DNA from: an uncultured Eubacteriales bacterium
GTDB lineage: Bacteria; Bacillota; Clostridia; Oscillospirales; Oscillospiraceae
Direction: 5' to 3'
Assembly: GCA_900549405.1 (NCBI GenBank)
Contig: URNZ01000055.1
Coordinates: forward strand, 1-13,265
DNA length: 13,265 nt
Made by a program: the position numbers and the translations under genes. This document shows, in pieces, positions 200-13,138 of the stretch. Numbering within the stretch: position 1 is the first letter of the stretch; every line of letters starts with the position of its first letter. Below the pieces are notes generated by a model that was not told the origin of the DNA, did no database searches, and was given only the letters and a program-made list of their open reading frames with translations.

Positions 200-1579
200 T
201 CAGGCCAACAGTCCGTCCTGCTCCAGGAAGAACAGCATCAGGCTCAGGGCCAGCAGGTCGGCGCAGCCGCCGGGGCTGAGATGCTCCCGGATGTATTGCC
301 GGTCTAAGTCGTTCAAAAGGGCGCGGAAGTTTTCCGGAGTGGCGCGGCGGTAGAGCTCCTCCGCCTCCACCCGGCACTGCCGGGCCCGGGCCAGGCCGCC
401 CCGGTGGATCATGTTGGTGTCCTCCGTCCCGGCGATGAGGGCCAGCAGGGTGAGGGCCGCCGCGTCGGAGAGGGCCAGGCCCGCTTCCGTCCACCGGCGC
501 AGGGCGGGCAGGCCCACGGTCAGCACCGGCTGAAAGCCCCCGGCGGCGACGCCCCGGGCCCCGGTGATCCGATATTGGCGATAGCACCGCAGGCCGCTGG
601 TGTCGGCGTCCGATCCCTCCGCCTGAAGATCCGCCAGGGCGCACTGGCCCAGCTCCCGGCTGATATCCAGCACCCTGTCCCGGGTGGGGACCGGTCCGTC
701 GGCGGCGATGGCCGCCCCCAGGGCGCCGCACAGGATGCCCATGGAGAAGATGAGCCCCTTGTGGGTGTTCACCCCGCCGGTGGCCCGGAGCATGGCGGCT
801 TCCGCCCCCTGCCCGGCAAAGCGCAACCGCTCAAACAGCATGGGGCGGGGGAGTGCGGCCCCGTCCCAGCCGATGCGGAACATAGCCTGAAAGCTGCCCG
901 CCAGAGACACGCTGCTGTCCACAAAGGTGGAAAAGTCCATGTCGGAGTGGGAGCCGGAGTTCTGCCGGTCCACCAGGCCGGGCTTGGGGGTGGCGGATAC
1001 CTCGTGGAGCAGGGCGCGGACGGCGCAGTCGGAATAGGTCTGGGCCCACTTGTCCCGGAAAAAGCTGCCGCAGATGTCCGCCACCCGGTGGCGCAGGGCG
1101 GCCCCGTCGTGGGCCCGGCTGCGGCCACAGGCCTTGGCGTCCCCCCCACACAGCAGACAGCGCCGGGCGGGCAGGCCGAAGTCCCTGCGGGACAGGGACC
1201 GTCCGCTGCCGTCCAGTACATCCATGTCAAACAGGCGGCCCAGGGGGTGCAGCTCCTCCAGCATCACCGTCTTCTGCTTCACGGCCCCCGCGGGCAGGCG
1301 GACCTCCATCAGCGCCTCGCTGCCGGTGACGCTGTGGCGGACAGACTCCTCCCCCAGGGCGCCGGACAGCAGCTGGCGCAGCTGGGACAGCCCCTCGTCA
1401 AACACCTGGCGCAGAGCGGGGGACTGCTTCACCGCCCCGGGCACGTTCAGCCCAAAGCTGAGCAGGCAGGAGCAGCCCTTTTTCAGCAGGGCCTGCTGGC
1501 GGTCCTGCCGGTCCGTGCGGCTTTGCAGCACCTGCTCCAGCGTGCAGGCCGTCCCCTGAAACATTGTCTCCTGATCCAT
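200..1579 (-). CDS. citXG: Fused holo-citrate lyase synthase CitX / triphosphoribosyl-dephospho-CoA synthase CitG
   Basis: This 459-residue protein joins two enzymes that build and attach the citrate lyase prosthetic group. Residues about 1-170 match CitX, which transfers the 2'-(5''-triphosphoribosyl)-3'-dephospho-CoA precursor to the acyl carrier CitD. The motifs seen are HPLGRLFD (111-118), RRDFG (131-135) and the Cys cluster C141-x2-C144 with C151. Residues about 175-459 match CitG, which makes that precursor from ATP and dephospho-CoA. The motifs seen are TPKPGLVD (197-204), HSDMDF (211-216), GGVNTHKG (268-275) and GTEDTN (384-389). CitX-CitG fusions are known in other bacteria. The gene follows citC by 6 nt, and its AGGAG ribosome site overlaps the citC stop, which implies translational coupling. 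Both domains look intact. Family assignment is firm. Confidence 0.95.
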   Translation of the reverse strand: MDQETMFQGTACTLEQVLQSRTDRQDRQQALLKKGCSCLLSFGLNVPGAVKQSPALRQVFDEGLSQLRQLLSGALGEESVRHSVTGSEALMEVRLPAGAVKQKTVMLEELHPLGRLFDMDVLDGSGRSLSRRDFGLPARRCLLCGGDAKACGRSRAHDGAALRHRVADICGSFFRDKWAQTYSDCAVRALLHEVSATPKPGLVDRQNSGSHSDMDFSTFVDSSVSLAGSFQAMFRIGWDGAALPRPMLFERLRFAGQGAEAAMLRATGGVNTHKGLIFSMGILCGALGAAIAADGPVPTRDRVLDISRELGQCALADLQAEGSDADTSGLRCYRQYRITGARGVAAGGFQPVLTVGLPALRRWTEAGLALSDAAALTLLALIAGTEDTNMIHRGGLARARQCRVEAEELYRRATPENFRALLNDLDRQYIREHLSPGGCADLLALSLMLFFLEQDGLLA

Positions 1580-1585
1580 GTCTGA

Positions 1586-2602
1586 TCACTCCTGGGCAAA
1601 AGATTCCTGTAAATAGGCCGCCGTGGTGGGGGGCACCAGGGAGAGTACTTCCGGGCACAGGCCCTTTTCCTTTAAAAGCCGCCGCACCCGACTGGCGCTG
1701 ACCGGCTGGCCGTCCACTTCCAGGCGGGGAATTTCCCGTACCTGGACCCCGTGCCGGGGCAGCAGGGCGGCCATGGCGGCGTTATACTGGGCCGTCACCG
1801 GGTCCAGGGGCTCCTGCCCCACAAAGCGGGTGCGGATGTGCAGGGGCGGGGCGATGCACTGGGCGAACACGGTGCAGTCCAGGGCGCACTGCATGGCGGT
1901 GGCGTCCTCCTCCTGCTTGAGGAAATAGGTGGGGAAGGTGGCCGAGGAGATCATATAGTGGCCGCTGGGGTGGACCCGCACGTTGGGCAGATGGGCGGTG
2001 CCCTCCCGCACCAGCCGGAGCCGCACCTGGCTGGAGAACATGGAGCGGTCCTCCTCCACCACGAACAGGTGCAGCACGTCGCACTGCGCCGCGGCGTATT
2101 CCACCAGATACCGGTGCCCCAGGGTGAAGGGGTTGCAGTTCATGACGATGGCCCCCACGGAGCGGTCCTCGTCCCCGGGCATGACCATGGGGGCGGTGAA
2201 GCGGGCGGGGCCGTCGGGCTGATTCTCCAGCAGGACCAGCTGCTCCGTCTTGGCCACGGTCCAGAAGCCGGAGTTTACAAACAGCGTCTCGTTGTGGGCG
2301 CGGGTGATGACCATCAGGTCATAGTACCCGGCGGCGAACCGGTCCTGGGTCAGGGCGGACACCAGCCGCCCCAGCAGGTTCTGGCCCCGCAGCTGGGGCA
2401 GCAGGGCAAAGCATTTCAGCAGCGCCCCCGCCGCGCAGCCGCAGCCCACCAGCTTTGGCTCCTCGCCAGAGGTCTCGTACACGCCGAAGGCCGTCTCCAC
2501 GTCGTGGTCCAGGCGCAGCCCCTGGCTTTGCAGCAGGGACTCCAGCGCAGACCGGTCCCAGGAGGAGGCCAGCTGTATCTTTTGGATGTCGTATACTTCC
2601 AT
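1586..2602 (-). CDS. citC: [Citrate (pro-3S)-lyase] ligase CitC
   Basis: CitC activates citrate lyase by ATP-dependent acetylation of the thiol of the prosthetic group on CitD. The protein has 338 residues from the start chosen here. An N-terminal GNAT-like acyltransferase domain covers about 1-125, including LPQLRGQNLLGRLV at 68-81. A nucleotidyltransferase-fold domain follows with the HxGH-type motif NPFTLGH at 157-163 and a C-terminal VSASRVRRLL motif at 301-310. This order and length are usual for the family. An in-frame ATG nine codons upstream (2629) is possible. I prefer 2602 because an AAGGAG lies 9 nt before it, whereas that motif would be inside the coding sequence if the upstream ATG were used. 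It is the first gene of the minus-strand operon and is divergent from the LysR gene. Confidence 0.95.
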   Translation of the reverse strand: MEVYDIQKIQLASSWDRSALESLLQSQGLRLDHDVETAFGVYETSGEEPKLVGCGCAAGALLKCFALLPQLRGQNLLGRLVSALTQDRFAAGYYDLMVITRAHNETLFVNSGFWTVAKTEQLVLLENQPDGPARFTAPMVMPGDEDRSVGAIVMNCNPFTLGHRYLVEYAAAQCDVLHLFVVEEDRSMFSSQVRLRLVREGTAHLPNVRVHPSGHYMISSATFPTYFLKQEEDATAMQCALDCTVFAQCIAPPLHIRTRFVGQEPLDPVTAQYNAAMAALLPRHGVQVREIPRLEVDGQPVSASRVRRLLKEKGLCPEVLSLVPPTTAAYLQESFAQE

Positions 2603-2611
2603 GGGTCTGTT

Positions 2612-2617
2612 CTCCTT
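2612..2617 (-). promoter_or_regulatory. Ribosome binding site that sets the citC start
   Basis: AAGGAG on the minus strand lies 9 nt before the ATG at 2602. It favours that codon over the in-frame ATG at 2629. Confidence 0.75.
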
Positions 2618-2630
2618 AGCAGTAAACATG

Positions 2631-2833: not shown

Positions 2834-3745
2834 ATGACCTTTAACGATTTGCGCTATATCGTTGTCATCGCAGAGGAAAACAGCATTACCAAAGCGGCGG
2901 ATAAGCTGTATATGACCCAGCCCGCCCTGAGCCAATATCTGAAAAAGGTGGAGAAGGAGCTGGGCGTGCTCATCTTCGAGCGGACCACCACCGGCGTGCG
3001 CCCCACGGCGGAGGGGGTGCAGTTCCTCGCCTTTGCCAAAAACGTGCTCAACCAGGAGCAGGACATGAAAAAGCAGCTGCAAAATCTGCGGGGCGGCGAC
3101 GTGGGCGAGGTGCGGCTGGGCTTTACCGGCACCCAGGCCACCTATGTGCTGCCCCACATCCTGCCGGATTTCCACCTGAAATATCCGGGCATCGAGATCA
3201 CGCTGGTAGAGGGCAGCAGCATCGACATTGAAAACAAGCTGCTCAAGCACGAGGTGGACATCGGCTTTCTCCATCCCCCTATCATGGAGCCGGAGCTGGA
3301 GTGGTTTGAATTCAGCCGGGACGAGATGGTCATCATCCCCCGGGAGGACAGCGACTATCAGCGCTATGTCTATTGGAAGGACGGCAAGGGCCCCTATCTG
3401 GACATGGAGTTCCTCCGCAACGAGCCCCTGACCCTGACCTATCCCTCTATGCGCAGCCGGATGATCTGTGACCAGATCTTTCAAAAGGCGGGCATCACCC
3501 CCACGGTGAAGCTGACCACCAAGCGGCTGAACGTGCTGGACGCCATGGCCCAGGTGGGCTTTACCAGCACCATCATGCCCTATAAGCAGCTCTCCGCCGA
3601 GCTGAAAGACCACCGGCGCTATTTTATCGACCCCAAATACAGCGTGCCCTATTCCTTTGTGGCCGCCGTGCGGAAAAACGCCTACATCCCTCATGTAGTA
3701 CAGCGGTTAATTGAAGAATTGCACCTGAAACAATATACCTTTTAA
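2834..3745 (+). CDS. LysR-family transcriptional regulator
   Basis: This 303-residue protein has the normal length and layout of a LysR-type regulator. An N-terminal winged helix-turn-helix covers about residues 1-60, with the characteristic run of S-I-T-K-A-A-D-K-L and then T-Q-P-A-L-S-Q. A linker helix follows, and a periplasmic-binding-protein-like effector domain runs from about residue 90 to the end. The start is supported by AAAAGGAG (2815-2822) 11 nt upstream. A second GGAGG directly abuts the ATG and is too close to act. The gene is divergent from citC-citXG and upstream of the TRAP and citrate lyase operon, so it most likely controls both in response to the carboxylate substrate. The effector and the direction of control are inferred. 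It ends at its own terminator at 3775. Confidence 0.92.
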   Translation: MTFNDLRYIVVIAEENSITKAADKLYMTQPALSQYLKKVEKELGVLIFERTTTGVRPTAEGVQFLAFAKNVLNQEQDMKKQLQNLRGGDVGEVRLGFTGTQATYVLPHILPDFHLKYPGIEITLVEGSSIDIENKLLKHEVDIGFLHPPIMEPELEWFEFSRDEMVIIPREDSDYQRYVYWKDGKGPYLDMEFLRNEPLTLTYPSMRSRMICDQIFQKAGITPTVKLTTKRLNVLDAMAQVGFTSTIMPYKQLSAELKDHRRYFIDPKYSVPYSFVAAVRKNAYIPHVVQRLIEELHLKQYTF

Positions 3746-3774
3746 AATGCAGCAATATCCTATAAATATACCAG

Positions 3775-3813
3775 GAAGGACGTATAATTGAAAATGCGTC
3801 CTTCTTTCTTTTT
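3775..3813 (+). terminator. Rho-independent terminator after the LysR gene
   Basis: GAAGGACG (3775-3782) pairs perfectly with CGTCCTTC (3797-3804) around a 14-nt loop. A T-rich tail (TTCTTTCTTTTT, 3802-3813) follows. It separates the regulator transcript from the dctP promoter. Confidence 0.8.
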
Positions 3814-3886
3814 ACGCCCATGCAGGATGGGAAAACGCAAATTTCATTCGACACTTTTTAACATGATTTACTTATCGCCCCCAAAT

Positions 3887-3909
3887 ATTTTCTGCATTTC
3901 ACAGAAAAT
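3887..3909. promoter_or_regulatory. Inverted repeat overlapping the dctP -35, candidate operator
   Basis: ATTTTCTG (3887-3894) and CAGAAAAT (3902-3909) form a perfect 8-bp inverted repeat with a 7-nt spacer. The right half covers the end of the -35 hexamer, a usual place for an activator or repressor to touch RNA polymerase. The nearby LysR protein is the most likely ligand, by inference. Confidence 0.5.
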
Positions 3910-3926
3910 TCACAAACTGCTATACT
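3898..3926 (+). promoter_or_regulatory. Sigma-A promoter of the TRAP / citrate lyase operon
   Basis: TTCACA (3898-3903) and TATACT (3921-3926) are spaced 17 nt apart. Transcription should start near 3933, leaving a leader of about 45 nt before dctP, too short for a riboswitch. Confidence 0.7.
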
Positions 3927-3978
3927 TTAGCCAGATTAAGTTTTCACAAAAGATTGTGGAGATGAAAGGAGAAAAAAC

Positions 3979-5037
3979 ATGAAAGGCAAACTTCGTACAC
4001 TGGTCGCCATGGTGATGACCGCCATGATGCTGACCTCCTGCGGTGCCAACGCCGGTTCCGGCAACACCGCCAACTCCGGCTCTGGTTCCCAGGCTTCCGG
4101 CTCTGCCACGGTGAGCGCCGACCCCATCACCATGAAGCTGGGCCTCAGCTTTGCGGACAGCCATCTGATCACCCAGGAGCTGTACGCCATGTCCGACGCA
4201 GTGAAGGAGCGCACCAACGGCGGCATCAACATCGAGATCTACGCCGACTCCCTGCTGGGCAAGGAGACCGAGATGTACGAGCAGCTGTACATGGGCACCA
4301 TCGACATGGCCCTGGAGACCATCGCCTTCCAGAGCACCACCCACCCCGAGTTGACCATCGAGGACCTGCCTTACATGTTCGCCACCCGCGAGGACGGATA
4401 TAAGGCCCTGGACGGCGGCTATGGCGACAAGATCAACGAGATCATCGCCTCCGACGGTCAGATCCGCAACCTGGGCTTTATGGAGCTGGGCTACCGCCAC
4501 ATGACCAACAACGTCCGCCCCATCAACACCCCCGATGACATGAAGGGCATCAAGTTCCGCACCACCACCTCTGACCTGCGTCTGGCCGTGTTCGAGGCCC
4601 TGGGTGCCCAGCCCGTCTCCATGAGCTTCAGCGAGGTCTTCACCGGCCTGCAGCAGAACGTCATCGACGGCCAGGAGAGCCCCCTGTCCACCATCGACAG
4701 CTCCTCCTTTGCCGAGGTGCAGAAGTACCTGTCCCTCACTGGCCACTTCTGGACCAACGAGTGCCTGCTGATCAACGAGAAGCTGTGGGAGAGCCTGCCT
4801 GAGGAGTGGCAGACCATCCTGCAGGAGGAGGTCGACGCCTGCGAGACCCGCATCCGGGAGAAGAACGTCCAGAGCGACGAAGAGCTGGTCGCCAAGCTGG
4901 AGAGCGAGGGCATGGAGGTCAACGAGGTCGACAAGGCCGCCTTTGCCGAGCAGCTGCAGCCCCTGTACGACGAGTGGGAGGGCAAGGTCATCGGTTCCGA
5001 CCTGATGAACGCCTATCGTGAATATTCCGGCTATTAA
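3979..5037 (+). CDS. dctP: TRAP transporter solute-binding lipoprotein (DctP family)
   Basis: This 352-residue protein is the extracytoplasmic receptor of a TRAP carrier, which captures an organic acid and hands it to the DctQM membrane complex. It starts with a lipoprotein signal (KGKLR, a hydrophobic run, lipobox LTSC with Cys21), so it should be lipid-anchored on the outer face of the membrane, as expected for a Gram-positive cell. A Gly/Ser/Ala-rich linker (about 22-46) precedes the binding domain. The conserved Arg of the family, which contacts the ligand carboxylate, is probably R194 in KFRTTTSD. A second signature, SFSEVFTGLQQNVIDGQE, follows. AAAGGAG lies 7 nt before the ATG. A strong terminator separates it from dctQ, probably giving an excess of receptor over permease. 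The ligand is not readable from sequence. Context suggests citrate or a related acid. Confidence 0.93.
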   Translation: MKGKLRTLVAMVMTAMMLTSCGANAGSGNTANSGSGSQASGSATVSADPITMKLGLSFADSHLITQELYAMSDAVKERTNGGINIEIYADSLLGKETEMYEQLYMGTIDMALETIAFQSTTHPELTIEDLPYMFATREDGYKALDGGYGDKINEIIASDGQIRNLGFMELGYRHMTNNVRPINTPDDMKGIKFRTTTSDLRLAVFEALGAQPVSMSFSEVFTGLQQNVIDGQESPLSTIDSSSFAEVQKYLSLTGHFWTNECLLINEKLWESLPEEWQTILQEEVDACETRIREKNVQSDEELVAKLESEGMEVNEVDKAAFAEQLQPLYDEWEGKVIGSDLMNAYREYSGY

Positions 5038-5060
5038 GCCAAATTTGCCGGCAACGCTAC

Positions 5061-5103
5061 AGAATTTCTTCTGCCGCTCGTCGGCAGAAGAAATTCTTTT
5101 TTT
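5061..5103 (+). terminator. Strong intra-operon terminator between dctP and dctQ
   Basis: A perfect 16-bp stem (5061-5076 with 5082-5097) closes a 5-nt CTCGT loop and runs into seven T residues (5097-5103). No separate good promoter is visible before dctQ, so partial read-through probably sets a lower level for the permease and lyase genes than for dctP. Confidence 0.9.
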
Positions 5104-5130
5104 GATCCCTTTTGATCCCTGCGTGATCCC
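5100..5130 (+). repeat. Tandem TTTTGATCCC repeats with a third GATCCC
   Basis: TTTTGATCCC occurs twice in direct tandem (5100-5109 and 5110-5119). A third GATCCC follows at 5125-5130. The repeats are spaced 10 and 11 nt apart, about one helical turn, just after the terminator and upstream of dctQ. Function is unknown. A binding site or simple slippage are both possible. Confidence 0.55.
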
Positions 5131-5169
5131 CCTGAAAACCTAAACTACGAAGTAAGGAGTTTACTGAAA

Positions 5170-5646
5170 ATGCTGTTTGAAAAAATAGTAGTTCGGGCTT
5201 TGCGGACCCTTTCCTTCCTGATGTTCGTCGTGATGATCGCGGTGGTCTTCGCCCAGGTCATCCTGCGCTACTTCTTCGGAATGCCCCTGGCCTGGAGCGA
5301 TGAGCTCTCCCGTCTGCTGCTGGTGTGGGTGTCCTTTATGGGCGTCACCCTGGTCCACTATTCCGACGCGGGCCACCCCGCCGTCACCTTCCTGGTGGAC
5401 AAGCTGCCCAACGCCCCCCGAGAGGTGGTGGACGCGGTGCTGAACGTGCTGCTGATCGTGGGCTTTGCCGCCATCTTCAAGGCCAGCCTGGAGTACACCG
5501 TTACCAACCACCGCTTTGTCAGCGCCGTGCTGCACTATCCCAACTCTGTGAAGTATGCGGTGGTCCCCCTGTCCATGGCCCTGATGGTCATCAAGAGCCT
5601 GGAGCGGACCGTTGTGGACTTTAAAAAACTGATGAAAAACGGATGA
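5170..5646 (+). CDS. dctQ: TRAP transporter small permease (DctQ family)
   Basis: This 158-residue integral membrane protein partners DctM in the TRAP permease. Four hydrophobic segments are visible at about residues 13-35, 45-65, 86-107 and 128-146, as usual for DctQ. The family signature is clear after the first helix: RYFFGMPLAWSDELSR and then a WVSFMG segment. TAAGGAG lies 10 nt before the ATG. The gene follows the terminator and GATCCC repeats and is separated from dctM by 14 nt. It has no enzymatic role of its own. It is needed for carrier assembly and for receptor docking, as known for the family. Confidence 0.92.
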   Translation: MLFEKIVVRALRTLSFLMFVVMIAVVFAQVILRYFFGMPLAWSDELSRLLLVWVSFMGVTLVHYSDAGHPAVTFLVDKLPNAPREVVDAVLNVLLIVGFAAIFKASLEYTVTNHRFVSAVLHYPNSVKYAVVPLSMALMVIKSLERTVVDFKKLMKNG

Positions 5647-5660
5647 GGAGATAAAACGAT

Positions 5661-6947
5661 ATGATGTTACTGTTACTGTTTGGCTCTTTCTTCCTGCTGC
5701 TGGCGCTGGGTGTGCCCATCCTGTTTTCCATGGGCGTGTCCGCCGGCGTCTATTATGTGGTCAGCGGCTATCCCCTGATGCAGTTCGTTCAGAAGACCAT
5801 CGGCGGCGTGGACTCCTTCACCCTGCTGGCCATCCCCTTCTTCCTGCTGGCCGGTGATATCATGGGCAAGGGCGGCATCAGCAAGCGGATGCTGCGCTTT
5901 GCCAACGCCCTGGTGGGCCCCCTCACCGGCGGCCTGGCCGTCACCGGCGTGGTGTCCAGCGCCATGTTCGGCACCATCTGCGGCTCCGCTCCCGCCACCG
6001 CCGCCTCCATCGGCAGCATCGTGGCCCCCGACATGGAGGCCCGTGGCTACAGCAAGCGCTTCACCGGCTCTATCATCGCCGCCTCCGGTCTGCTGGGCAT
6101 CATCATTCCCCCCAGCATCGTCATGGTCAACTATGGCGCTACTGCCGGCGTGTCCATCGGCAGCCTGTTCATCGGCGGCATTATCCCCGGCATCATGGCC
6201 ATGCTGGGCCTGGCCATCTTCTCTGTGTGGCAGAGCAAAAAGTATGGCTATGGCCTGGTGGACGGCCACAAGCAGCACTATGACCTGCGGGAGATCCTGG
6301 TCTCCTTCAAGGGCGCTATCCTGCCCCTGACCACCCCCCTGTTCATCCTGGGCAGCATCATGCTGGGCATCGCCACCGCCACCGAGGCCGCCGTCATCTC
6401 CGTGGTGTGGTCCGCCTTCCTCACCGTGGTCGTTTATCGCGAGATCACCGTGAAGGAGCTGTGCACCATCATCACCGACGGCGTGGGCAAGGCCGGTCAG
6501 ATCATCGGCATGATGGCCTCCTCCGCCGCCTTCGGCTATGCCCTGACCGTGGAGAAGGTCCCCGCCCTGATGGCCAACTTCTTCGTGCAGTATGTGGACA
6601 ACGCCCTGATTTTCTTCCTCATCACCTTTGCTATCGTGCTTATCTTCGGCTGCTTCCTGGAGGTCATCGCCATCATCGTGCTGGTCACCCCCATCCTGCT
6701 GCCCGTCTCCACCGCCATGGGCATCGACCCCATCCACTTCGGCATGTTCATGTGCCTGACCCTGTGCCTGGGCGGCCTGACTCCCCCTGTGGGTCTGTGC
6801 CTGATCACCACCAGCCGTATCGTGGACGTGGACATCGACAAGATGTTCCCCGACCTGCTGTGGTGCATCGGCATCTATGTGCTGGTCATCGCCCTGGTGG
6901 CCGTGTTCCCCGGCCTGGCCACCTGGCTGCCCAGCATGATGGCGTAA
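5661..6947 (+). CDS. dctM: TRAP transporter large permease (DctM family)
   Basis: At 428 residues this is the standard-length transport subunit. It carries out secondary uptake of the DctP-bound acid, normally driven by Na+. It is hydrophobic throughout, with about a dozen membrane segments. Family motifs include LLAIPFFLLAGDIMGKGGIS, the glycine/alanine-rich CGSAPATAASIGSIVAPDME, IIIPPSIVMVNYGA, and near the C-terminus GGLTPPVGLCL. The start has GAGGAG 10 nt upstream. The next codon is also ATG, so the start could be one codon later. It lies between dctQ (14 nt) and the amidohydrolase gene (16 nt), which implies a single transcript. No truncation is visible. Confidence 0.94.
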   Translation: MMLLLLFGSFFLLLALGVPILFSMGVSAGVYYVVSGYPLMQFVQKTIGGVDSFTLLAIPFFLLAGDIMGKGGISKRMLRFANALVGPLTGGLAVTGVVSSAMFGTICGSAPATAASIGSIVAPDMEARGYSKRFTGSIIAASGLLGIIIPPSIVMVNYGATAGVSIGSLFIGGIIPGIMAMLGLAIFSVWQSKKYGYGLVDGHKQHYDLREILVSFKGAILPLTTPLFILGSIMLGIATATEAAVISVVWSAFLTVVVYREITVKELCTIITDGVGKAGQIIGMMASSAAFGYALTVEKVPALMANFFVQYVDNALIFFLITFAIVLIFGCFLEVIAIIVLVTPILLPVSTAMGIDPIHFGMFMCLTLCLGGLTPPVGLCLITTSRIVDVDIDKMFPDLLWCIGIYVLVIALVAVFPGLATWLPSMMA

Positions 6948-6963
6948 CGCGGAGGGAAGTTTT

Positions 6964-7794
6964 ATGAGCGTACATCAAAAGCTGACTATCCCCCACGCCT
7001 GCAACGCCCACCTGCACATCATCGACCCGGCCTTTCCCAACGACGGGAAGGCCGCCGCCCAGATCGGCACGGTGGAGACCTATGCCAAGCTGGCCGACGA
7101 GCTGGGACTGGAGCGGGCGGTGTTCGTCCAGGCCAAGCCCTTTGCCACGGACAACGCCTGCCTGCTGGACGCCATCCAGAAGTTTGGCCCCCAGCGCGCC
7201 CGGGGCATCGCCGTGGTCACCGACCAGATCGGCGACAAAGAACTGGAGCAGCTGCACCAGGGCGGCGTCCGGGGCCTGCGCTTCAGCGTGTGGAACCCCA
7301 ACAACGCCGTGGTCTCCTTTGACATGTGCGAGCCTTTGAGCCACCGGGTCAGCGACCTGGGCTGGAACATGCAGCTGCACATGAGCGCCAGGCAGCTGAT
7401 GGAGCAGGAGGAGATCGTCTCCCGCCTGCCCGGAAAGGTGGTCATCGACCACATGGGCCGTCTGGACCCGGAAAAAGGCATCGATGACCCGGCCTATGCC
7501 TGCCTGTGCCGCCTCATTGACCGGGGCAACGTGTGGGTGAAGCTGTGCGGCCCCTATCTGAATACCAAGACCGGCTATCCCTGGGCCGACGCGGCCAAGA
7601 CCGCCCGGGCCCTGGCCGCCTATGCGCCGGAGCGGATGCTGTGGGGCACCGATTTCCCCCACGTCACCGAAAAAGTAAAGCCTGACGAGTGGTCTCTGCT
7701 GGAGACCATCGACGCCTGGTTCGACACCGACCACGCCAAGCGGCTGGCCCTGGTGGAGAACCCGGAGCAGGTGTATGGATTCTCGGCCGACTAA
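6964..7794 (+). CDS. Amidohydrolase-superfamily TIM-barrel hydrolase, LigI/COG3618 type (putative lactonase)
   Basis: This 276-residue protein resembles the amidohydrolase branch that includes 2-pyrone-4,6-dicarboxylate lactonase (LigI) and galactarolactone isomerase-type enzymes. Visible signatures are N-A-H-L-H with H16 and H18 after strand 1, H139 in MQLH, a basic loop RGLRFSVWNPNN, H163 in VIDHMGR, and the catalytic-type Asp230 in WGTDFPH. These match the pattern of a barrel with a conserved strand-8 Asp. Members act on lactones of di- and tricarboxylic acids. GGAGG lies 8 nt before the ATG. It sits between dctM (16 nt) and citD (18 nt), so it is almost certainly co-transcribed with the citrate lyase. 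I infer that it opens a lactone of the imported acid before cleavage. The exact substrate is unknown, and an isomerase role is possible. Confidence 0.8.
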   Translation: MSVHQKLTIPHACNAHLHIIDPAFPNDGKAAAQIGTVETYAKLADELGLERAVFVQAKPFATDNACLLDAIQKFGPQRARGIAVVTDQIGDKELEQLHQGGVRGLRFSVWNPNNAVVSFDMCEPLSHRVSDLGWNMQLHMSARQLMEQEEIVSRLPGKVVIDHMGRLDPEKGIDDPAYACLCRLIDRGNVWVKLCGPYLNTKTGYPWADAAKTARALAAYAPERMLWGTDFPHVTEKVKPDEWSLLETIDAWFDTDHAKRLALVENPEQVYGFSAD

Positions 7795-7812
7795 TTGAGA
7801 GGAAGCGAAACT

Positions 7813-8121
7813 ATGATCCTGAAAAAACCGGCCATGGCCGGAACTCTGGAGTCCAGCGATGTTCAGATCACGCTGCGCCCCAATCCCAACGGCGGCGTTC
7901 AGCTGAATCTGCGCAGCGACGTGATGGCGCAGTTCGGAGACGCCATCCGGGACACCGTTATGGAAGAGCTGAAGAAATTTGACTTAAACGACGTTGTGGT
8001 GGACGTGGAGGACAAGGGCGCGCTGGATTTCGTTATCCGGTCCCGGCTCCAGTGCGCCATCTGCCGCGGCGCGGAGATCTCCTACAACTGGGCAGAGGAG
8101 GATGGCCATGGCAAGCAGTGA
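7813..8121 (+). CDS. citD: Citrate lyase acyl carrier protein (gamma subunit) CitD
   Basis: This 102-residue protein is the acyl carrier of citrate lyase. It holds the phosphoribosyl-dephospho-CoA arm that carries acetyl and citryl groups. The attachment motif AGTLESSD is present, with Ser14 at the same position as the modified serine of Klebsiella CitD. A conserved VEDKGALDFVIRSRLQ segment follows. The ATG at 7813 is preceded by AGAGGA 9 nt upstream. An upstream in-frame TTG directly after the previous stop is less likely. The 3' end overlaps citE by 14 nt, and the citE ribosome site lies inside citD. The tail after residue 85 (CAICRGAEISYNW and a polar end) contains two Cys, which is a small oddity. 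Confidence 0.95.
   Translation: MILKKPAMAGTLESSDVQITLRPNPNGGVQLNLRSDVMAQFGDAIRDTVMEELKKFDLNDVVVDVEDKGALDFVIRSRLQCAICRGAEISYNWAEEDGHGKQ
8096..8101 (+). promoter_or_regulatory. Ribosome binding site that sets the citE start
   Basis: AGGAGG sits inside the end of citD. It abuts the ATG at 8102 but is 6 nt before the in-frame ATG at 8108, so 8108 is the better start. Confidence 0.7.
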
Positions 8122-9007
8122 ACTGATGCGTACCTCCCTGTACGCCGGCGGCACCAGCCCCGTGAAGATGATCCAGGCTGGCTTTTATAACGAGGACTGC
8201 ATCGTCTACGACCTGGAGGACTCGGTATCCGCGGGGGAGAAGGACGCGGCCCGCTTCCTGGTGTATAACCTGGTGAAGTATCAGCGCCCCAAGAACAAGT
8301 ATGTGGTGGTCCGGGTGAACGGCCTGTACTCTGAGTATCTGGACGAGGACCTGGAGGCCATCGTCCGTGCCCAGCCCGACGCCATCCGCCTGCCCAAGGT
8401 GGAGTATGCCAAAGAGGTGGAGCGCATCGACCAGCGCGTCACCCAGATCGAGCAGGCCGCCGGTCTGCCCGTGGGCGGCATCAAGCTGTGGTGCAACATC
8501 GAGTCCTATCTGGGCGTGATGAACGCCCAGGAGATCGCCAAGGCCAGCCCCCGTGTGGCGGCCATGGCCATCGGCGCCGAGGACCTGACCGCCAGCCTGG
8601 GCGCCCAGCGCACCAAGCCCGGCTGGGAGATCTTCTATGCCCGCAACGCCATCCTCATGGCCTGCCGGGCCGCCGGGATCTCCGCCCAGGACGCCGTGTT
8701 CTCTGACATCAACGACAAGGAGGGCCTGCAGCGGGACCTGGAGATGACCCGCACCCTGGGCTTTGACGGCAAGACCTGCGTCCACCCCCGCCAGATCGAC
8801 GCGGTGAACGCCTGCTTCACCCCCAGCGCCAAAGAGATCCGCAACGCGGAGCGGGTGCTGGCCGCCCTGGACGAGGCGGCGAAGAACCACACCGGCGTCT
8901 GCACGCTGGACGGCAGCATGGTGGACAAGCCCATGGAGCTGCGGGCCAGGACCACTCTGGCCAAGGCCGCTGCTGCGGGCATCAAGATCGGAGGCGTTCA
9001 GGCATGA
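8108..9007 (+). CDS. citE: Citrate lyase beta subunit (citryl-ACP lyase) CitE
   Basis: CitE cleaves citryl-ACP to acetyl-ACP and oxaloacetate. The protein has 299 residues, normal for the family, and a HpcH/HpaI-type TIM barrel. Visible motifs are YDLEDSV (34-40), R69 in VVVRVNG, LPKVE (95-99), E132 in NIES and D159 in GAEDL (the likely Mg2+ ligands), and KTCVHPRQI (222-230). The start at 8108 was chosen from AGGAGG spacing. The stop overlaps the citF start as ATGA (9004-9007), so translation is coupled on both sides. The same fold also serves citramalyl- and malyl-thioester lyases. The full CitCDEFXG set argues for a true ACP-dependent lyase, but a citramalate-type or other citrate-analogue substrate cannot be excluded. 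Confidence 0.94.
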   Translation: MASSELMRTSLYAGGTSPVKMIQAGFYNEDCIVYDLEDSVSAGEKDAARFLVYNLVKYQRPKNKYVVVRVNGLYSEYLDEDLEAIVRAQPDAIRLPKVEYAKEVERIDQRVTQIEQAAGLPVGGIKLWCNIESYLGVMNAQEIAKASPRVAAMAIGAEDLTASLGAQRTKPGWEIFYARNAILMACRAAGISAQDAVFSDINDKEGLQRDLEMTRTLGFDGKTCVHPRQIDAVNACFTPSAKEIRNAERVLAALDEAAKNHTGVCTLDGSMVDKPMELRARTTLAKAAAAGIKIGGVQA

Positions 9008-10569
9008 GCAAGAATTCATTAGGCCGGGAGCTGCCCGAGCAGGTGGGCAGCTATCGCGTCCGCCCCTATGAGGGCGCTTATCAGCCCCTGCCCGAAGTCA
9101 AGCCCGTGGTCACCCGCCGCACCGCCGGACATCGCGTTCCCGGCGGGAACAAGCTGGTGCCCACTCTGAAGGACGCCATCATCGCCTCCGGGCTGAAGGA
9201 CGGCATGACCATCTCCTTCCACCACAGCTTCCGGGAGGGGGACAAGGTCATCGGCCAGGTGCTCACCGCCATCCGGGCGCTGGGCATCAAGGGCCTGCGC
9301 TTTGCCCCCAGCGCCGTGGTGAACATCAAGGAGCCCTCCATCGTGGACTTTGTGAAGGACGGCACCATCAACCGCATCGAGGCCAGCGGCATCCGCGGCC
9401 AGCTGGGCGACGCCATCCTCTCCGGCGAGGTGGAGCTGGCCGAGCCCGTCATCCTGCGCACCCACGGCGGCCGCCCCCGGGCCATCGAGGCCGGGGAGCT
9501 GCAGATCGACGTGGCCTTCATCGGCGCTTCCGCCGCTGACGACTATGGCAACTGCACCAGCCAGATCGGCCCCAACGCCTGCGGCTCCATGGGCTATTCC
9601 TTTGTGGATGCCCACAACGCCGGCTGCGTGGTGGTGGTCACCGACAATCTGGTGGACTACCCCTGCTGCCCGGTGAGCATCAGTCAGCAGTATGTGGACT
9701 ATGTGGTCAAGGTGGACTCCATCGGCGACCCGGCTAAGATCGGCGCGGGTGCGGCCCGGCTGACCAAGAACCCCCGGGACCTGATGATCGCCCAGCGGAC
9801 GGTGGACGTGATGTCCGCCTCCCGCCGGTTCAAGGACGGCTTCTCCTTCCAGACCGGTGCCGGCGCCATCAGCATCGCCACCACCAAGTATCTGGCTGAG
9901 CGGATGAAGGAGCGGGGCGTGAAGGCCAGCTTCGCCCTGGGCGGTATCCCCGCCGCCATCATCGACATGTATGACGAGGGTCTGGTCCGGGTGGTGGCCT
10001 GCAGCCAGTCCTTCGACGCGGTGGCCGCCCAGGCCATCAGCAGCCGCCCCGGCGTCATCGAGATCGACAACGCGGACTATGCCAACGCCTACAGCAAGGG
10101 CGGCTATCTCAACCGGGAGGACTTCGGCATTCTTGGCGCGCTGGAGGTGGACACGGACTTTAACGTGAACATCCTCACCGGCTCCTCTGGCGAGATGCGG
10201 GGCGGCCTGGGCGGCGGCCCCGACGTGGCCGGGGGCGCCCAGGTGTCCATCGTCACCATCCCCGTGATCCGTGGCCGCACCCCCTCCATCGTGAAGAAGG
10301 TGTTCACCACCTGCACCCCCGGCGAGACCGTTGCCGTGGTGGTGACCGAGGCGGGCATCGCCCTGAACCCCAAGCACAAGAACTATCAGGAGCTGAAGGA
10401 GGACCTGGAGGCCGCCGGTTTGAAGCTGGTGACCATCGAGGAGCTTCAGCAGCTGGCCGAGTCCATGACCGGCGTCCCCAAGCCTATCGAGACCGGCGAC
10501 AAGGTGGTCTGCATGGTGGAATACCGGGACGGCAGCGTGGTAGACGTGATCCGCCAGATCAAAAAGTGA
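9004..10569 (+). CDS. citF: Citrate lyase alpha subunit (citrate CoA/ACP-transferase) CitF
   Basis: CitF exchanges acetyl-ACP for citryl-ACP, releasing acetate. It has 521 residues, the usual length, and belongs to the CoA-transferase fold. Recognisable segments are THGGRPRAIEAGE (153-165), AFIGASAADDYGN (171-183) and the glycine-rich SSGEMRGGLGGGPDVAGGA (394-412), with a TPGETVAVVVTEAG segment near the end. It is the last gene of the operon, overlapping citE by 4 nt, and is followed by a 12-bp-stem hairpin. With CitD and CitE it forms the cytoplasmic lyase complex. No missing conserved block is seen. The same caveat on substrate applies as for CitE. Confidence 0.95.
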   Translation: MSKNSLGRELPEQVGSYRVRPYEGAYQPLPEVKPVVTRRTAGHRVPGGNKLVPTLKDAIIASGLKDGMTISFHHSFREGDKVIGQVLTAIRALGIKGLRFAPSAVVNIKEPSIVDFVKDGTINRIEASGIRGQLGDAILSGEVELAEPVILRTHGGRPRAIEAGELQIDVAFIGASAADDYGNCTSQIGPNACGSMGYSFVDAHNAGCVVVVTDNLVDYPCCPVSISQQYVDYVVKVDSIGDPAKIGAGAARLTKNPRDLMIAQRTVDVMSASRRFKDGFSFQTGAGAISIATTKYLAERMKERGVKASFALGGIPAAIIDMYDEGLVRVVACSQSFDAVAAQAISSRPGVIEIDNADYANAYSKGGYLNREDFGILGALEVDTDFNVNILTGSSGEMRGGLGGGPDVAGGAQVSIVTIPVIRGRTPSIVKKVFTTCTPGETVAVVVTEAGIALNPKHKNYQELKEDLEAAGLKLVTIEELQQLAESMTGVPKPIETGDKVVCMVEYRDGSVVDVIRQIKK

Positions 10570-10582
10570 TCATACCCCAGGA

Positions 10583-10646
10583 GCAAAGCTGGAACATGGA
10601 TGAATGAAAACGGGCGCTGATGTAAAAACATCAGCGCCCGCTTTGC
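10583..10646 (+). terminator. Hairpin after citF, likely terminator with a poor U-tail
   Basis: CGGGCGCTGATG (10611-10622) pairs perfectly with CATCAGCGCCCG (10629-10640) around a TAAAAA loop. The tail is only CTTT. An outer GCAAAG (10583-10588) can pair with CTTTGC (10641-10646). It probably ends the citrate lyase transcript, but the weak tail leaves room for a 3'-stabilising role. Confidence 0.6.
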
Positions 10647-10675
10647 GATGTGGGGGGATGGAGCGAGGGTGCAAG

Positions 10676-10704
10676 TTGACACGCCCCCGTCCCCATGATA
10701 AAAT
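10676..10704 (+). promoter_or_regulatory. Near-consensus sigma-A promoter of the sulfur-transfer operon
   Basis: TTGACA (10676-10681, consensus) and TAAAAT (10699-10704) are 17 nt apart. Transcription should start near 10711, giving a leader of about 70 nt. The leader contains GGAATTTCC (10730-10738) flanked by CAC and CTGT, resembling the palindrome at 2786-2802. Confidence 0.8.
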
Positions 10705-10781
10705 AACCGCTGTATCCCCTGGAAACACTGGAATTTCCCTGTTTTCATGCGGGTTTTTAGTTTGTTTATGGGGGCCTTTTT

Positions 10782-11927
10782 ATGATCTATCTGGACTATG
10801 CCGCCAACCATCCGGCGGACCCGGGGGTGGTGGAGCGGTTTTGTCGCACGGAGCTGGCCTTTCCCGGCAACCCCAACTCCGCCCACTCGGCGGGGCGGGC
10901 CGCCCGGGAGGAACTGGACCGGATCACCGCGTCCATTGCCGCTCTGCTGGGGGCGGAGCCGGAGGAGGTCATCTACACCTCTGGGGCCACCGAGTCCAAC
11001 AACCTGGCCATCAAGGGCCTGGCCCAGGCCAGCCGCCACGTGGGGCGGCACATCCTGTCCACCCAGCTGGAGCACTCCTCGGTGGGGGGCAGTCTCACCG
11101 CCCTGCAAAACCAGGGCTATGAGATCGACCTGCTGGACGTGGACCGCCGGGGACAGGTGGACCTGGAACAGCTCCGGGACCTGCTGCGGAAGGACACGGT
11201 GCTGCTGTCCCTGTCGGCGGTGGACAGCGAGCTGGGGACGGTGCAGCCCCTGGAGGAAGTGCGGGAGATATTAAAGGAGTACCCCAACTGCCGATTGCAC
11301 GTCGACGCCACCCAGGCGGTGGGGCGCATCCCCGTGCGCTTCACCGGCTGCGACACCATGAGCCTGGCCCTGCACAAGATCGGCGGGCTCAACGGCAGCG
11401 GCCTGCTGCTCAAGCGGAAGGGCCTGGTGCTGGAGCCCCTGCTCCACGGCGGGACCAGCACCACCATCTATCGCAGCGGCACCCCCACCCTGGCCCTGGC
11501 GGCAGCGGCGGAGGAGGCCCTGCGTCGGGCCTTGTGGGAGCGGGAGGAGCGGACGGCCCGTGTGGCCGCCCTGCGCCGCCGACTGGAGGACGGTCTGAAA
11601 CAATACCCCCAGGTGCGCATCAACAGCCCGGCGGGGGCGGTGCCCCACATTCTCAACCTCAGCGTGGCGGGGGTGCGGGGCAGCCGGTTCCAGCAGGCCC
11701 TGTCGGGCCGGGGCGTGTGCGTGTCGGTAAAGTCCGCCTGTTCCTCTGACGGGCTGCCATCCAAGGCGGTGTTCGCCGTCAGCCGGGACCGGAAAAACGC
11801 CCTATCCAGCTGGCGCATCAGCCTGAGCCACCTGACCACAGAGGAAGAGATCGACCAATTTTTGACCATTTTTGACGCCTGCTGCCGGGAACTCACCGGC
11901 CAGGGGGCGGGGGAGGAGCGCAAATGA
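10782..11927 (+). CDS. Cysteine desulfurase, IscS/NifS-type class V aminotransferase
   Basis: This 381-residue PLP enzyme should take sulfur from cysteine as a protein persulfide and pass it to an acceptor. Key positions are all present: GATESNN (68-74), H98 over the cofactor, D175 and Q178 in VDATQ, the Schiff-base K199 in LHK, RSGT (231-234), and the nucleophile C320 in SAC. The C-terminal motif W-R-I-S-L and T-T-E-E-E-I-D is typical. One oddity is that the NNE motif contacting PLP in IscS reads DSE here (148-150). The ribosome site is weak (GGGGG 7 nt before the ATG). It overlaps the next gene as ATGA, which points to the TtcA-like enzyme as the sulfur acceptor. A selenocysteine lyase activity is a less likely alternative. 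Confidence 0.9.
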   Translation: MIYLDYAANHPADPGVVERFCRTELAFPGNPNSAHSAGRAAREELDRITASIAALLGAEPEEVIYTSGATESNNLAIKGLAQASRHVGRHILSTQLEHSSVGGSLTALQNQGYEIDLLDVDRRGQVDLEQLRDLLRKDTVLLSLSAVDSELGTVQPLEEVREILKEYPNCRLHVDATQAVGRIPVRFTGCDTMSLALHKIGGLNGSGLLLKRKGLVLEPLLHGGTSTTIYRSGTPTLALAAAAEEALRRALWEREERTARVAALRRRLEDGLKQYPQVRINSPAGAVPHILNLSVAGVRGSRFQQALSGRGVCVSVKSACSSDGLPSKAVFAVSRDRKNALSSWRISLSHLTTEEEIDQFLTIFDACCRELTGQGAGEERK

Positions 11928-12796
11928 GCCGTGAATTGACCCAGTGCCAGCTCATCGAGCGGAGCATTCTGAAAAAATATCGCAAAGAGATCTGGAAACC
12001 CTTTACCTATGCCATCCGGCGCTATCAGCTGATCCAGCCCGGGGACAAGATCGCCGTGTGCATCTCCGGGGGGAAAGACTCCATGCTCATGGCCAAGCTG
12101 ATGCAGCTGCTCCAGCGGTTCAGCGACTATCCCTTTGAAGTGGTCTTTTTGGTGATGGACCCCGGCTATAACGAGATCAACCGCCACAAGATCGAGAGCA
12201 ACGCCGCCCTGCTGGAGATCCCCATCACCATCTTCGAGACCAATATTTTCGAGGTGGCCAACAACAGCGAAAAGTCCCCCTGCTACCTGTGCGCCCGGAT
12301 GCGCCGGGGCCACCTGTACAGCAAGGCAAAGGAGCTGGGCTGCAACAAGATCGCCCTGGGCCACCACTTTAACGACGTGATCGAGACCACGGTGCTGGGC
12401 ATGTTCTTCGGCTCTCAGCTCCAGGCCATGCTGCCCAAGCTGCACAGCACCAACTTTGCGGGCATGGAGCTCATCCGCCCCCTGTACTGCATCCACGAGG
12501 ACAGCATCATCGCCTGGCGGCGGTATAACGACCTGGAGTTTATCCAGTGCGCCTGCCGCTTCACGGAAAACTGCGCCATCTGCGATAACGGCGGCGGCGG
12601 CTCCAAGCGGCAGGAGGTGAAGACCCTGCTGCGGCGGCTGAAGCGGGACAACCCCAACATCGAAAAGAGCATCTTCAACAGCATCCACGCCGTCAGTCTG
12701 GATACCATGATCGGCTATAAGACCCACGGGGAGCTGCACTCCTTCCTGGAGGGCTATGACGAGAAGCGCCCGGTGGAGGAGCAGGAGAGCGAGTAA
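11924..12796 (+). CDS. ttcA: TtcA-like PP-loop ATPase, tRNA thiolation enzyme
   Basis: This 290-residue protein has the PP-loop SGGKDS (48-53), which binds ATP and adenylates the target base. It has the C120-x2-C123 pair in PCYLCARMRRG and a GHHFNDVIETT segment, both characteristic of the TtcA group. TtcA makes 2-thiocytidine at tRNA position 32 using a [4Fe-4S] cluster held by three cysteines. The third ligand here is probably in the C-A-C-R...C-x2-C cluster (C209, C211, C217, C220), which is richer in Cys than I would expect. A GGGG-rich stretch follows it. It overlaps the desulfurase gene by 4 nt, so sulfur delivery by that enzyme is likely. Some clostridial TtcA-like proteins may thiolate other positions, so the exact target is inferred. 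Confidence 0.85.
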   Translation: MSRELTQCQLIERSILKKYRKEIWKPFTYAIRRYQLIQPGDKIAVCISGGKDSMLMAKLMQLLQRFSDYPFEVVFLVMDPGYNEINRHKIESNAALLEIPITIFETNIFEVANNSEKSPCYLCARMRRGHLYSKAKELGCNKIALGHHFNDVIETTVLGMFFGSQLQAMLPKLHSTNFAGMELIRPLYCIHEDSIIAWRRYNDLEFIQCACRFTENCAICDNGGGGSKRQEVKTLLRRLKRDNPNIEKSIFNSIHAVSLDTMIGYKTHGELHSFLEGYDEKRPVEEQESE

Positions 12797-12823
12797 ACGC
12801 CCAGAAATATAGGAGAGAGAAGC

Positions 12824-13138
12824 ATGAGCGACTATCAGGATATCGATTTTCAGCAGGCCCGGGAGATCTTAGACCGGGAGAAGGACAGCGTGCTGCTGGA
12901 CGTGCGGGAGGAGGAGGAGTTCATCACCGGCCACCCCATCGAGGCCGAGCTGCTGCCCCTGAGCACCTTAAGCCCCGCCACCGCGGCGGAGCTGATCCCC
13001 AGCAAGGACAGCCCCGCCCTGGTCTATTGCCGCAGCGGCGTGCGCAGCCGCCAGGCCGCCGAAAAGCTGGTAAAAATGGGCTACACCCAGGTCTATAACC
13101 TGGGCAGCTTAGTGGGCTGGCCCTATGGGATGACGTGA
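12824..13138 (+). CDS. Single-domain rhodanese-like sulfurtransferase
   Basis: This 104-residue cytoplasmic protein is one rhodanese domain. LLDVREEEEF (24-33) is the CH2A-like motif. The active-site loop Y-C-R-S-G-V-R-S carries the nucleophile C69, followed by AAEKLVKMGYTQVYNLGSLVGWP. Catalytic Cys and loop Arg residues are present, so it should carry a persulfide. AGGAGA lies 7-8 nt before the ATG. The gap from the TtcA-like gene is 27 nt with no terminator or promoter, so it is probably the third gene of the operon and may relay sulfur from the desulfurase to the PP-loop enzyme. The partner is inferred. Confidence 0.88.
   Translation: MSDYQDIDFQQAREILDREKDSVLLDVREEEEFITGHPIEAELLPLSTLSPATAAELIPSKDSPALVYCRSGVRSRQAAEKLVKMGYTQVYNLGSLVGWPYGMT

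Follow-up and report, generated by a model that had tools for sequence, protein, structure and literature searches.

Known lyase systems and the cluster under study

Citrate lyase is built from an acyl carrier protein (ACP, CitD), a beta subunit (CitE) and an alpha subunit (CitF) and is served by maturation genes, as in E. coli K-12, whose citrate lyase is a known enzyme, and in Enterococcus and Streptococcus plasmids. The same three subunits and maturation genes are encoded in the 13,265-nucleotide stretch of DNA analysed here (the window; contig URNZ01000055.1 of an uncultured Eubacteriales bacterium), where citDEF follows a gene for an amidohydrolase (AH) that resembles LigI. Ordinary citrate lyase differs from that of the window by a separate clade for CitE and CitF, by Ala instead of Asn at one CitE residue and by His instead of Gly at CitF position 405, and its clusters hold no AH in the annotated stretches examined. 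On sequence grounds, the CitDEF linked to AH is a third lyase group beside the citrate and citramalate lyases, and its association with AH is conserved, more than by chance, among anaerobe genomes.

A tripartite ATP-independent periplasmic (TRAP) carrier part, as in the window, presumably belongs also to the itaconate gene cluster of Pseudomonas aeruginosa, PA0878-0886. The P. aeruginosa cluster is comparable to the window in keeping a coenzyme A (CoA)-transferase, a citramalyl-CoA lyase and a lactonase together, but it is CoA-based, has another kind of lactonase and its lyase serves citramalyl-CoA (PMC9875883, PMC12290011). PA0880 is the 2-hydroxyparaconate lactonase of that cluster in one report (PMC9875883), and its role is called proposed in the other (PMC12290011). 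CitDEF enzymes linked to methylaspartase are regarded as the citramalate lyases that serve the methylaspartate pathway (PMC4682846); they share the CitDEF build with the window and differ by a separate clade, by Leu where the window has Asn and by methylaspartase in the stretch, which is absent among the ten window proteins scanned. Another paper (PMC2996986) describes a cluster for citrate lyase and, at a different place, an amidohydrolase that belongs to a benzoate cluster. The AH-lyase pairing, the third lyase clade and a parallel CoA form were not found in the open-access literature searched, mostly as titles and abstracts, which is not proof of absence; the enzymes belong to known families.

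The features of the window are the following:
200..1579, minus strand: citXG fusion, which makes and attaches the lyase prosthetic group (PF03802, PF01874 and TIGR03124 over cut-off)
1586..2629, minus strand: citC, ligase acetylating the lyase ACP (TIGR00124, 284 bits, cut-off 262)
2834..3745, plus strand: LysR regulator, from profile matches and comparison with the LysR of relatives
3898..3926, plus strand: promoter-like site upstream of dctP, a consensus match alone (10/12)
3979..5037, plus strand: dctP, TRAP solute-binding protein (PF03480, TIGR00787; AlphaFold2 model with pLDDT 84.7)
5061..5097, plus strand: 16-bp hairpin followed by a T run in the dctP-dctQ gap, from a scan for terminator-like sites
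5170..5646, plus strand: dctQ, TRAP small permease (PF04290)
5661..6947, plus strand: dctM, TRAP large permease (PF06808, TIGR00786)
6964..7794, plus strand: AH, LigI-like amidohydrolase, proposed lactonase (PF04909, Amidohydro_2)
7813..8121, plus strand: citD, lyase ACP (TIGR01608, 109.1 bits, cut-off 63.5)
8108..9007, plus strand: citE, lyase beta subunit (HpcH_HpaI/citE; TIGR01588, 315.7 bits, under the cut-off of 443.4; own clade)
8495..8497, plus strand: the group-splitting Asn codon of CitE, residue 128 when numbering starts at base 8114, two positions ahead of the presumed Mg-binding Glu
9004..10569, plus strand: citF, lyase alpha subunit, acyl transferase (TIGR01584, 595.6 bits, cut-off 501.45; own clade)

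A third group of CitDEF lyases

CitD and CitF of the window exceed the cut-offs of the curated citrate lyase models, and CitE stays under its own. In the trees, the CitF proteins of this type form one clade with support of 100/100 and a stem of 1.2-1.35 changes per site, and the CitE proteins likewise form their own clade (100/100). The rows of this type and the putative citramalate rows each lie on one side of a branch for both subunits; the citrate-type rows do so for CitE, and for CitF one of them, L088 from Fusobacterium, falls beside the citramalate group. The citramalate yardstick consisted of stretches around strong methylaspartase matches, for which 14 of the 15 matching genomes were fetched, giving 14 loci, eight of them with citE and citF, and all citrate and citramalate labels except that of the E. 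coli enzyme were assigned from clade or neighbouring genes.

One CitE residue, two positions ahead of the presumed Mg-binding Glu, separates the same groups, being Ala in the citrate-type rows (15/15), Leu in the putative citramalate rows (8/8) and Asn in all 16 rows of this type. CitF position 405 is Gly in 14/14 rows of this type and His in the citrate-type (15/15) and putative citramalate (8/8) rows. By both the trees and the CitE residue, Asn for Ala and Asn for Leu, the window lyase is thus outside the citrate-type and the putative citramalate groups. This position makes a substrate other than citrate more likely, and the lyase probably breaks down an acid other than citrate or citramalate. 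Among the 11 genomes with a citF of this type of at least 350 residues, six also carry an ordinary citF. Genomes G003, G013 and G015 have citF fragments only, which are in no tree, those of G013 being of the ordinary type (44-45% identical). Sequences U_L169, U_L141 and U_L142 were dropped from the CitE tree; L066 and L067 are labelled as AH-linked in the CitF tree and the CitE residue comparison, having no AH nearby, and L071 and L073, labelled canonical at 11-13 kb from AH, were counted apart in the residue counts and the CitF tree.

Three citF paralogues are found in each of the Pyramidobacter-family genomes G012, G377 and G378, two of those in G012 lying in different clades, and the lyase nearest to AH in G012 and G377 has Ile at the key CitE residue. 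As for ordinary citrate lyase, a citF match is present in 52 Enterococcus plasmid records, and the Enterococcus faecium plasmid NZ_CP034947.1 (locus L085) carries a cluster with a 2-hydroxycarboxylate carrier.

Conservation of the AH-lyase pair in anaerobes

Species genomes were scanned with two conserved peptides from 15 AH relatives, which gave 21 loci and misses relatives without these peptides; three further genomes with AH came from family searches. In the resulting set of 20 anaerobe genomes with AH (G001-G017, G315, G377 and G378), citD, citE or citF, or citC or citXG, lies at most 13 kb from AH on the same contig in 18, the distance being 11-13 kb in G012, G377 and G378. In the remaining two, no cit gene is visible and a contig end is close to AH: in G006 it is about 0.1 kb away and 3.5 kb remain on the opposite side, and in G010 the figures are about 0.5 kb and some 12 kb. 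The pairing is therefore kept in other genomes, and its confinement to this one, which the earlier note had named as a refutation of its model, does not apply. Counted from the lyase, 12 of the 16 citE rows of this type have AH in the stretch, two (G007) are ended by the contig at citD and two are without AH.

The lineages with AH, according to record titles, include Lachnospiraceae, Oscillospiraceae, Acidaminococcus and Pyramidobacter, among others. AH is rare, occurring in 1/291 and 2/300 genomes in even draws, which are a poor basis for counting it; it is present in 5/14 genomes of the Pyramidobacter family, and a match of more than 400 bits was found in 3/59 genomes of the Acidaminococcus family.

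Two layouts are seen. The core layout, with LysR, a carrier, AH and citDEF, is that of the window, of L001 (Yanshouia hominis), whose TRAP proteins are 79-91% identical to those of the window, and of L074, whose carrier is of MatC/CitMHS type. The extended layout has LeuCD, AH and citDEF, often with genes for PrpF, a CitMHS carrier, RpiR, DJ-1 and MmgE/PrpD. Its LeuC belongs to one tight subfamily (78-100% identical) found in 16 of the 20 genomes; G001, G315, G011 and G013 lack this LeuC, their best LeuC being 35-40% identical, and so the AH-lyase pair can do without this hydratase. A PrpF-type isomerase is in the same stretch as AH or its lyase in 11 of the 20, and neither PrpF nor LeuCD is among the window proteins. 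The trans-aconitate tar operon, described as an isomerase of the PrpF family and an MFS carrier (PMC11495376), shares this isomerase family with those 11 genomes.

The PrpF of L002 is closest to 3-methylitaconate isomerase 3g7k (331.7 bits, next 272.1), and the closest solved relative of the L002 LeuC is the isopropylmalate/citramalate isomerase 4nqy (342.5 bits); the cassette LeuC passes the homoaconitase-family model TIGR01343. Plasmid relatives of PrpF, 41-44% identical among the 40 matches listed, gave no substrate assignment, and neither did plasmid relatives of LeuC; the search of viral contigs found no relative. A second citDEF of the Asn type in G002 and G005 (L095, 7347-12982; L096, 2657-8364) stands with LysR and a stand-alone DctM-like permease, with no AH in the stretch.

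The AH protein and its residues

AH has the LigI fold and its catalytic set H31, H33, H180 and D248, kept in 20/20 AH rows together with LigI R124 and R183, which bears out its earlier description as a LigI-type protein. From fold and residues, AH is proposed to be a lactonase that hydrolyses a lactone. LigI itself, the 2-pyrone-4,6-dicarboxylate (PDC) lactonase (PDB 4d8l, 4di8), is 33-35% identical to AH in the structural alignment. Its residues R130, Y156 and R217 are presumably those that bind the substrate in the PDC pocket; Y156 is His in 20/20 AH rows, and R130 and R217 align with Pro112 and Leu199 of AH, so this pocket is not kept. PDC was rejected as the substrate of AH since the pocket differs, and we know of no gut source of it. 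The only NCBIfam match of AH is the 4-sulfomuconolactone hydrolase model NF042924, at 135.7 bits and far below the cut-off of 500.

In a tree of 75 AH rows, the 30 with a lyase-linked label lie on one side of a branch with support of 100/97, and 44 unlinked rows, with LigI and relatives from Acidaminococcaceae, lie on the other; L006 and L010, where contig ends come before any cit gene, are labelled as linked and L019 is without label. Three residues that LigI lacks follow the same division: Lys58 is present in 29/30 linked and 0/43 unlinked rows, Ser108 in 30/30 and 0/43, and Trp110 in 29/30 and at most one of 43. This separation strengthens the link between AH and the lyase. Gln137, Tyr198 and Trp252 are no mark of linked AH, being found in 36, 41 and 35 of the 43 unlinked rows, and His139, Gln144, Thr235 and Glu236 are also partly found in unlinked rows. 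A distant AH (36% identical) at L083, 4598-12833, of a genome taken for A. fermentans (G311) is beside PrpF, a dihydroorotase-like hydrolase and TRAP genes, a cluster that perhaps serves another acid pathway.

A CoA-type counterpart

Relatives of AH are found near a CitE-type CoA lyase in Alphaproteobacteria (L020, L021, L089, L090, L092, L094, L101 and L102) and in Cupriavidus (L091); in most cases a class III CoA-transferase and a carrier accompany them. These relatives are 43-51% identical to the window AH, a range that covers the loci other than L101 and L102. The carriers are of the 2HCT (L089), TctC, DASS (L021) and SCFA (L020) types. In 200 genomes of one alphaproteobacterial order, all four AH matches of at least 400 bits have CitE-like and CoA-transferase genes at most 5 kb away; two of the four are the G020 pair at L021, of which one was in the query alignment. 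For the 38 lower-scoring AH relatives fetched from that order (L103-L140), no CitE-like gene was seen up to 5 kb away or as far as the contig reaches; five of these controls are cut by contig ends and 20 of the control loci were taken down the ranked list with some skipped. Five of the six plasmid AH relatives examined, from 240 records matched, are near CitE-like genes.

The key CitE residue is Asn in 5/7 CoA lyases near AH; the lyases of L102 (L143) and L101 (L144) have it too. Among 26 further sequences, taken from loci of best matches in 18 genomes and including one ACP-type citE (L170), Asn occurs once, in L145 of locus L171. The Asn-type CoA lyases are not nested within the Asn-type ACP lyases in the CitE tree. 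A single cluster at L021 (1938-10097) combines CitE and CoA-transferase with two AH copies, an SMP-30 type protein, MmgE/PrpD and a DASS carrier.

Proposed pathway and alternatives

The explanation favoured here, which has roughly an even chance of being right, is that the cluster serves uptake and fermentation of a small branched hydroxy acid, together with its lactone, by way of AH and then the third-type lyase. DctPQM, or other carriers in the relatives, would import the acid or lactone, and AH, as a LigI-type lactonase, would open the ring to give a tertiary hydroxy acid, R-C(OH)(COO-)-CH2-COO-, with a polar R. CitXG would mature CitDEF and CitC would acetylate it; CitF would then exchange the acetyl group on the ACP for the hydroxy acid, and CitE would cleave the product into acetate and the 2-oxo acid R-CO-COO-, acetyl-ACP being kept for the next round. 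The same scheme, with CoA replacing ACP, may operate in Alphaproteobacteria. This reading is drawn from the gene content, conservation, clades, residues and predicted fold, from which we infer every reaction, the order of AH before lyase and the polar R, the last being suggested by the CitE Asn, where the citrate type has Ala and the putative citramalate type Leu.

The likeliest single substrate would be itatartarate with its lactone 2-hydroxyparaconate, giving acetate and hydroxypyruvate; taken by itself this assignment is doubtful, and it is slightly favoured because a 2-hydroxyparaconate lactonase occurs in the P. aeruginosa itaconate cluster (PMC9875883). Homocitrate lactone, giving acetate and 2-oxoglutarate, is a somewhat weaker candidate, considered because the cassette LeuC passes TIGR01343, even if the solved structure closest to this LeuC is that of the isopropylmalate/citramalate isomerase, and hydroxycitrate lactone is a third and more improbable one. 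The wider claim is an undescribed ACP-dependent lyase for a tertiary hydroxy acid with a polar side chain, such as these three, fed by a dedicated LigI-type lactonase and present as an ACP form in gut anaerobes of several lineages and as a parallel CoA form in Alphaproteobacteria; its chances are a little short of even.

Lyases of this family require that the hydroxyl of the acid sit on the carbon next to CH2-COO. Isocitrate, or its lactone, has the hydroxyl at the wrong position and is unlikely as the lyase substrate. The earlier proposal of a lactone-forming citrate analogue is partly supported, by the position of the lyase outside the citrate-type group and by the LigI-like AH, and loses isocitrate from its candidates. 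Plain citrate fermentation is not the first choice, given the lyase clade and the CitE residue.

Several observations weigh against the favoured pathway. Copies of the lyase stand without a nearby AH, which is consequently not obligatory, at two citDEF copies of the same type, L095 (none over 10 kb to one side and 7 kb to the other) and L096 (none over 12.6 kb nor in the 2.7 kb that remain before the contig ends), and at L171, a cluster with an Asn-type CoA lyase (none in 18 kb). Some AH-linked lyases lack the Asn, with Ile in L092, L094, L071 and L073 and Thr in L011; the Asn of ACP and CoA lyases may be inherited with losses rather than convergent, and contact of this residue with the substrate side group is something that we infer only. 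The LeuCD hydratase and PrpF isomerase of most relatives are only partly explained, and sequence and fold searches with DctP gave closely scored matches and no ligand assignment. PA0880 carries the annotation of a 127-residue ring-cleaving dioxygenase and not that of an amidohydrolase, and 2-hydroxyparaconate and itatartarate did not support growth of the engineered host (PMC9875883).

The LeuCD and PrpF genes suggest other routes. Relatives could import trans-aconitate, convert it by PrpF to cis-aconitate and by LeuCD to citrate, and cleave citrate with CitDEF, AH having a side role and the window being a reduced, citrate-importing form. In A. fermentans, fermentation of trans-aconitate proceeds by way of citrate and oxaloacetate (PMC3035267), the aconitate isomerase TarA belongs to the PrpF family (PMC11495376), and the frequencies of the LeuC subfamily and PrpF among the 20 genomes agree with such a route. 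It is nevertheless unlikely: the lyase lies outside the citrate-type clade and is without its Ala, six of the 11 genomes with this lyase have an ordinary citF as well, the cassette LeuC is missing from four genomes and from the window, AH would be without a clear task, and the presumed A. fermentans genome has an AH relative that falls outside the linked clade.

A CoA-free route, in which PrpF would turn itaconate into citraconate, LeuCD would make citramalate and CitDEF would split it into acetate and pyruvate, with AH clearing inhibitory 2-hydroxyparaconate, would suit the nearest relatives of the L002 PrpF and LeuC and also the P. aeruginosa itaconate cluster, which likewise has a lactonase (PMC9875883). 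This route is more improbable, for the lyase is outside the putative citramalate clade, with Asn in place of Leu, and the window has neither PrpF nor LeuCD. That AH comes later than the lyase and works on its 2-oxo acid product, or that it is no lactonase but a hydratase or decarboxylase, is very unlikely.

If the enzyme acts on another acid, as the favoured pathway has it, citrate use by gut bacteria is over-predicted, since citD and citF of the window pass the curated citrate lyase models, and a fermentation route for plant, fungal or host acids has been overlooked. The single CitE residue would allow lyases for citrate, those for citramalate and those of the third type to be told apart quickly; the paired lactonase points to a small panel of candidate lactones. 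Should the substrate be an itaconate-family lactone, the cluster would matter for how antimicrobial metabolites of fungi or of the host are broken down in the gut.

Transcription and neighbouring genes

The coordinates bear out the close packing of dctQ, dctM, AH and citDEF that was described before, with gaps of 14 nt (dctQ-dctM), 16 nt (dctM-AH) and 18 nt (AH-citD, with the citD ATG at 7813) and with overlaps of citD with citE and citE with citF. The earlier note also placed dctP and the downstream genes under one promoter; the gene order is confirmed, and a shared promoter is supported only in part, as the 132-nt dctP-dctQ gap holds the hairpin and T run. This hairpin has the longest stem of the 14 terminator-like sites in 3700-10800, for which shuffles give an expectation of 4.6, and it may end a separate dctP transcript or reduce expression of the dctQM-AH-cit genes, perhaps by attenuation. 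No Rfam family was found in the window at gathering scores.

The LysR gene and the divergent citC and citXG (200-2629) are very likely part of the cluster, which would then be wider than first noted. A LysR 50-54% identical to that of the window adjoins citDEF of the same type in L001, L074, L095 and L096. After the cluster, at 10782-13138, the window has cysteine-desulfurase-like, TtcA-like and rhodanese-like genes, named from their translations alone.

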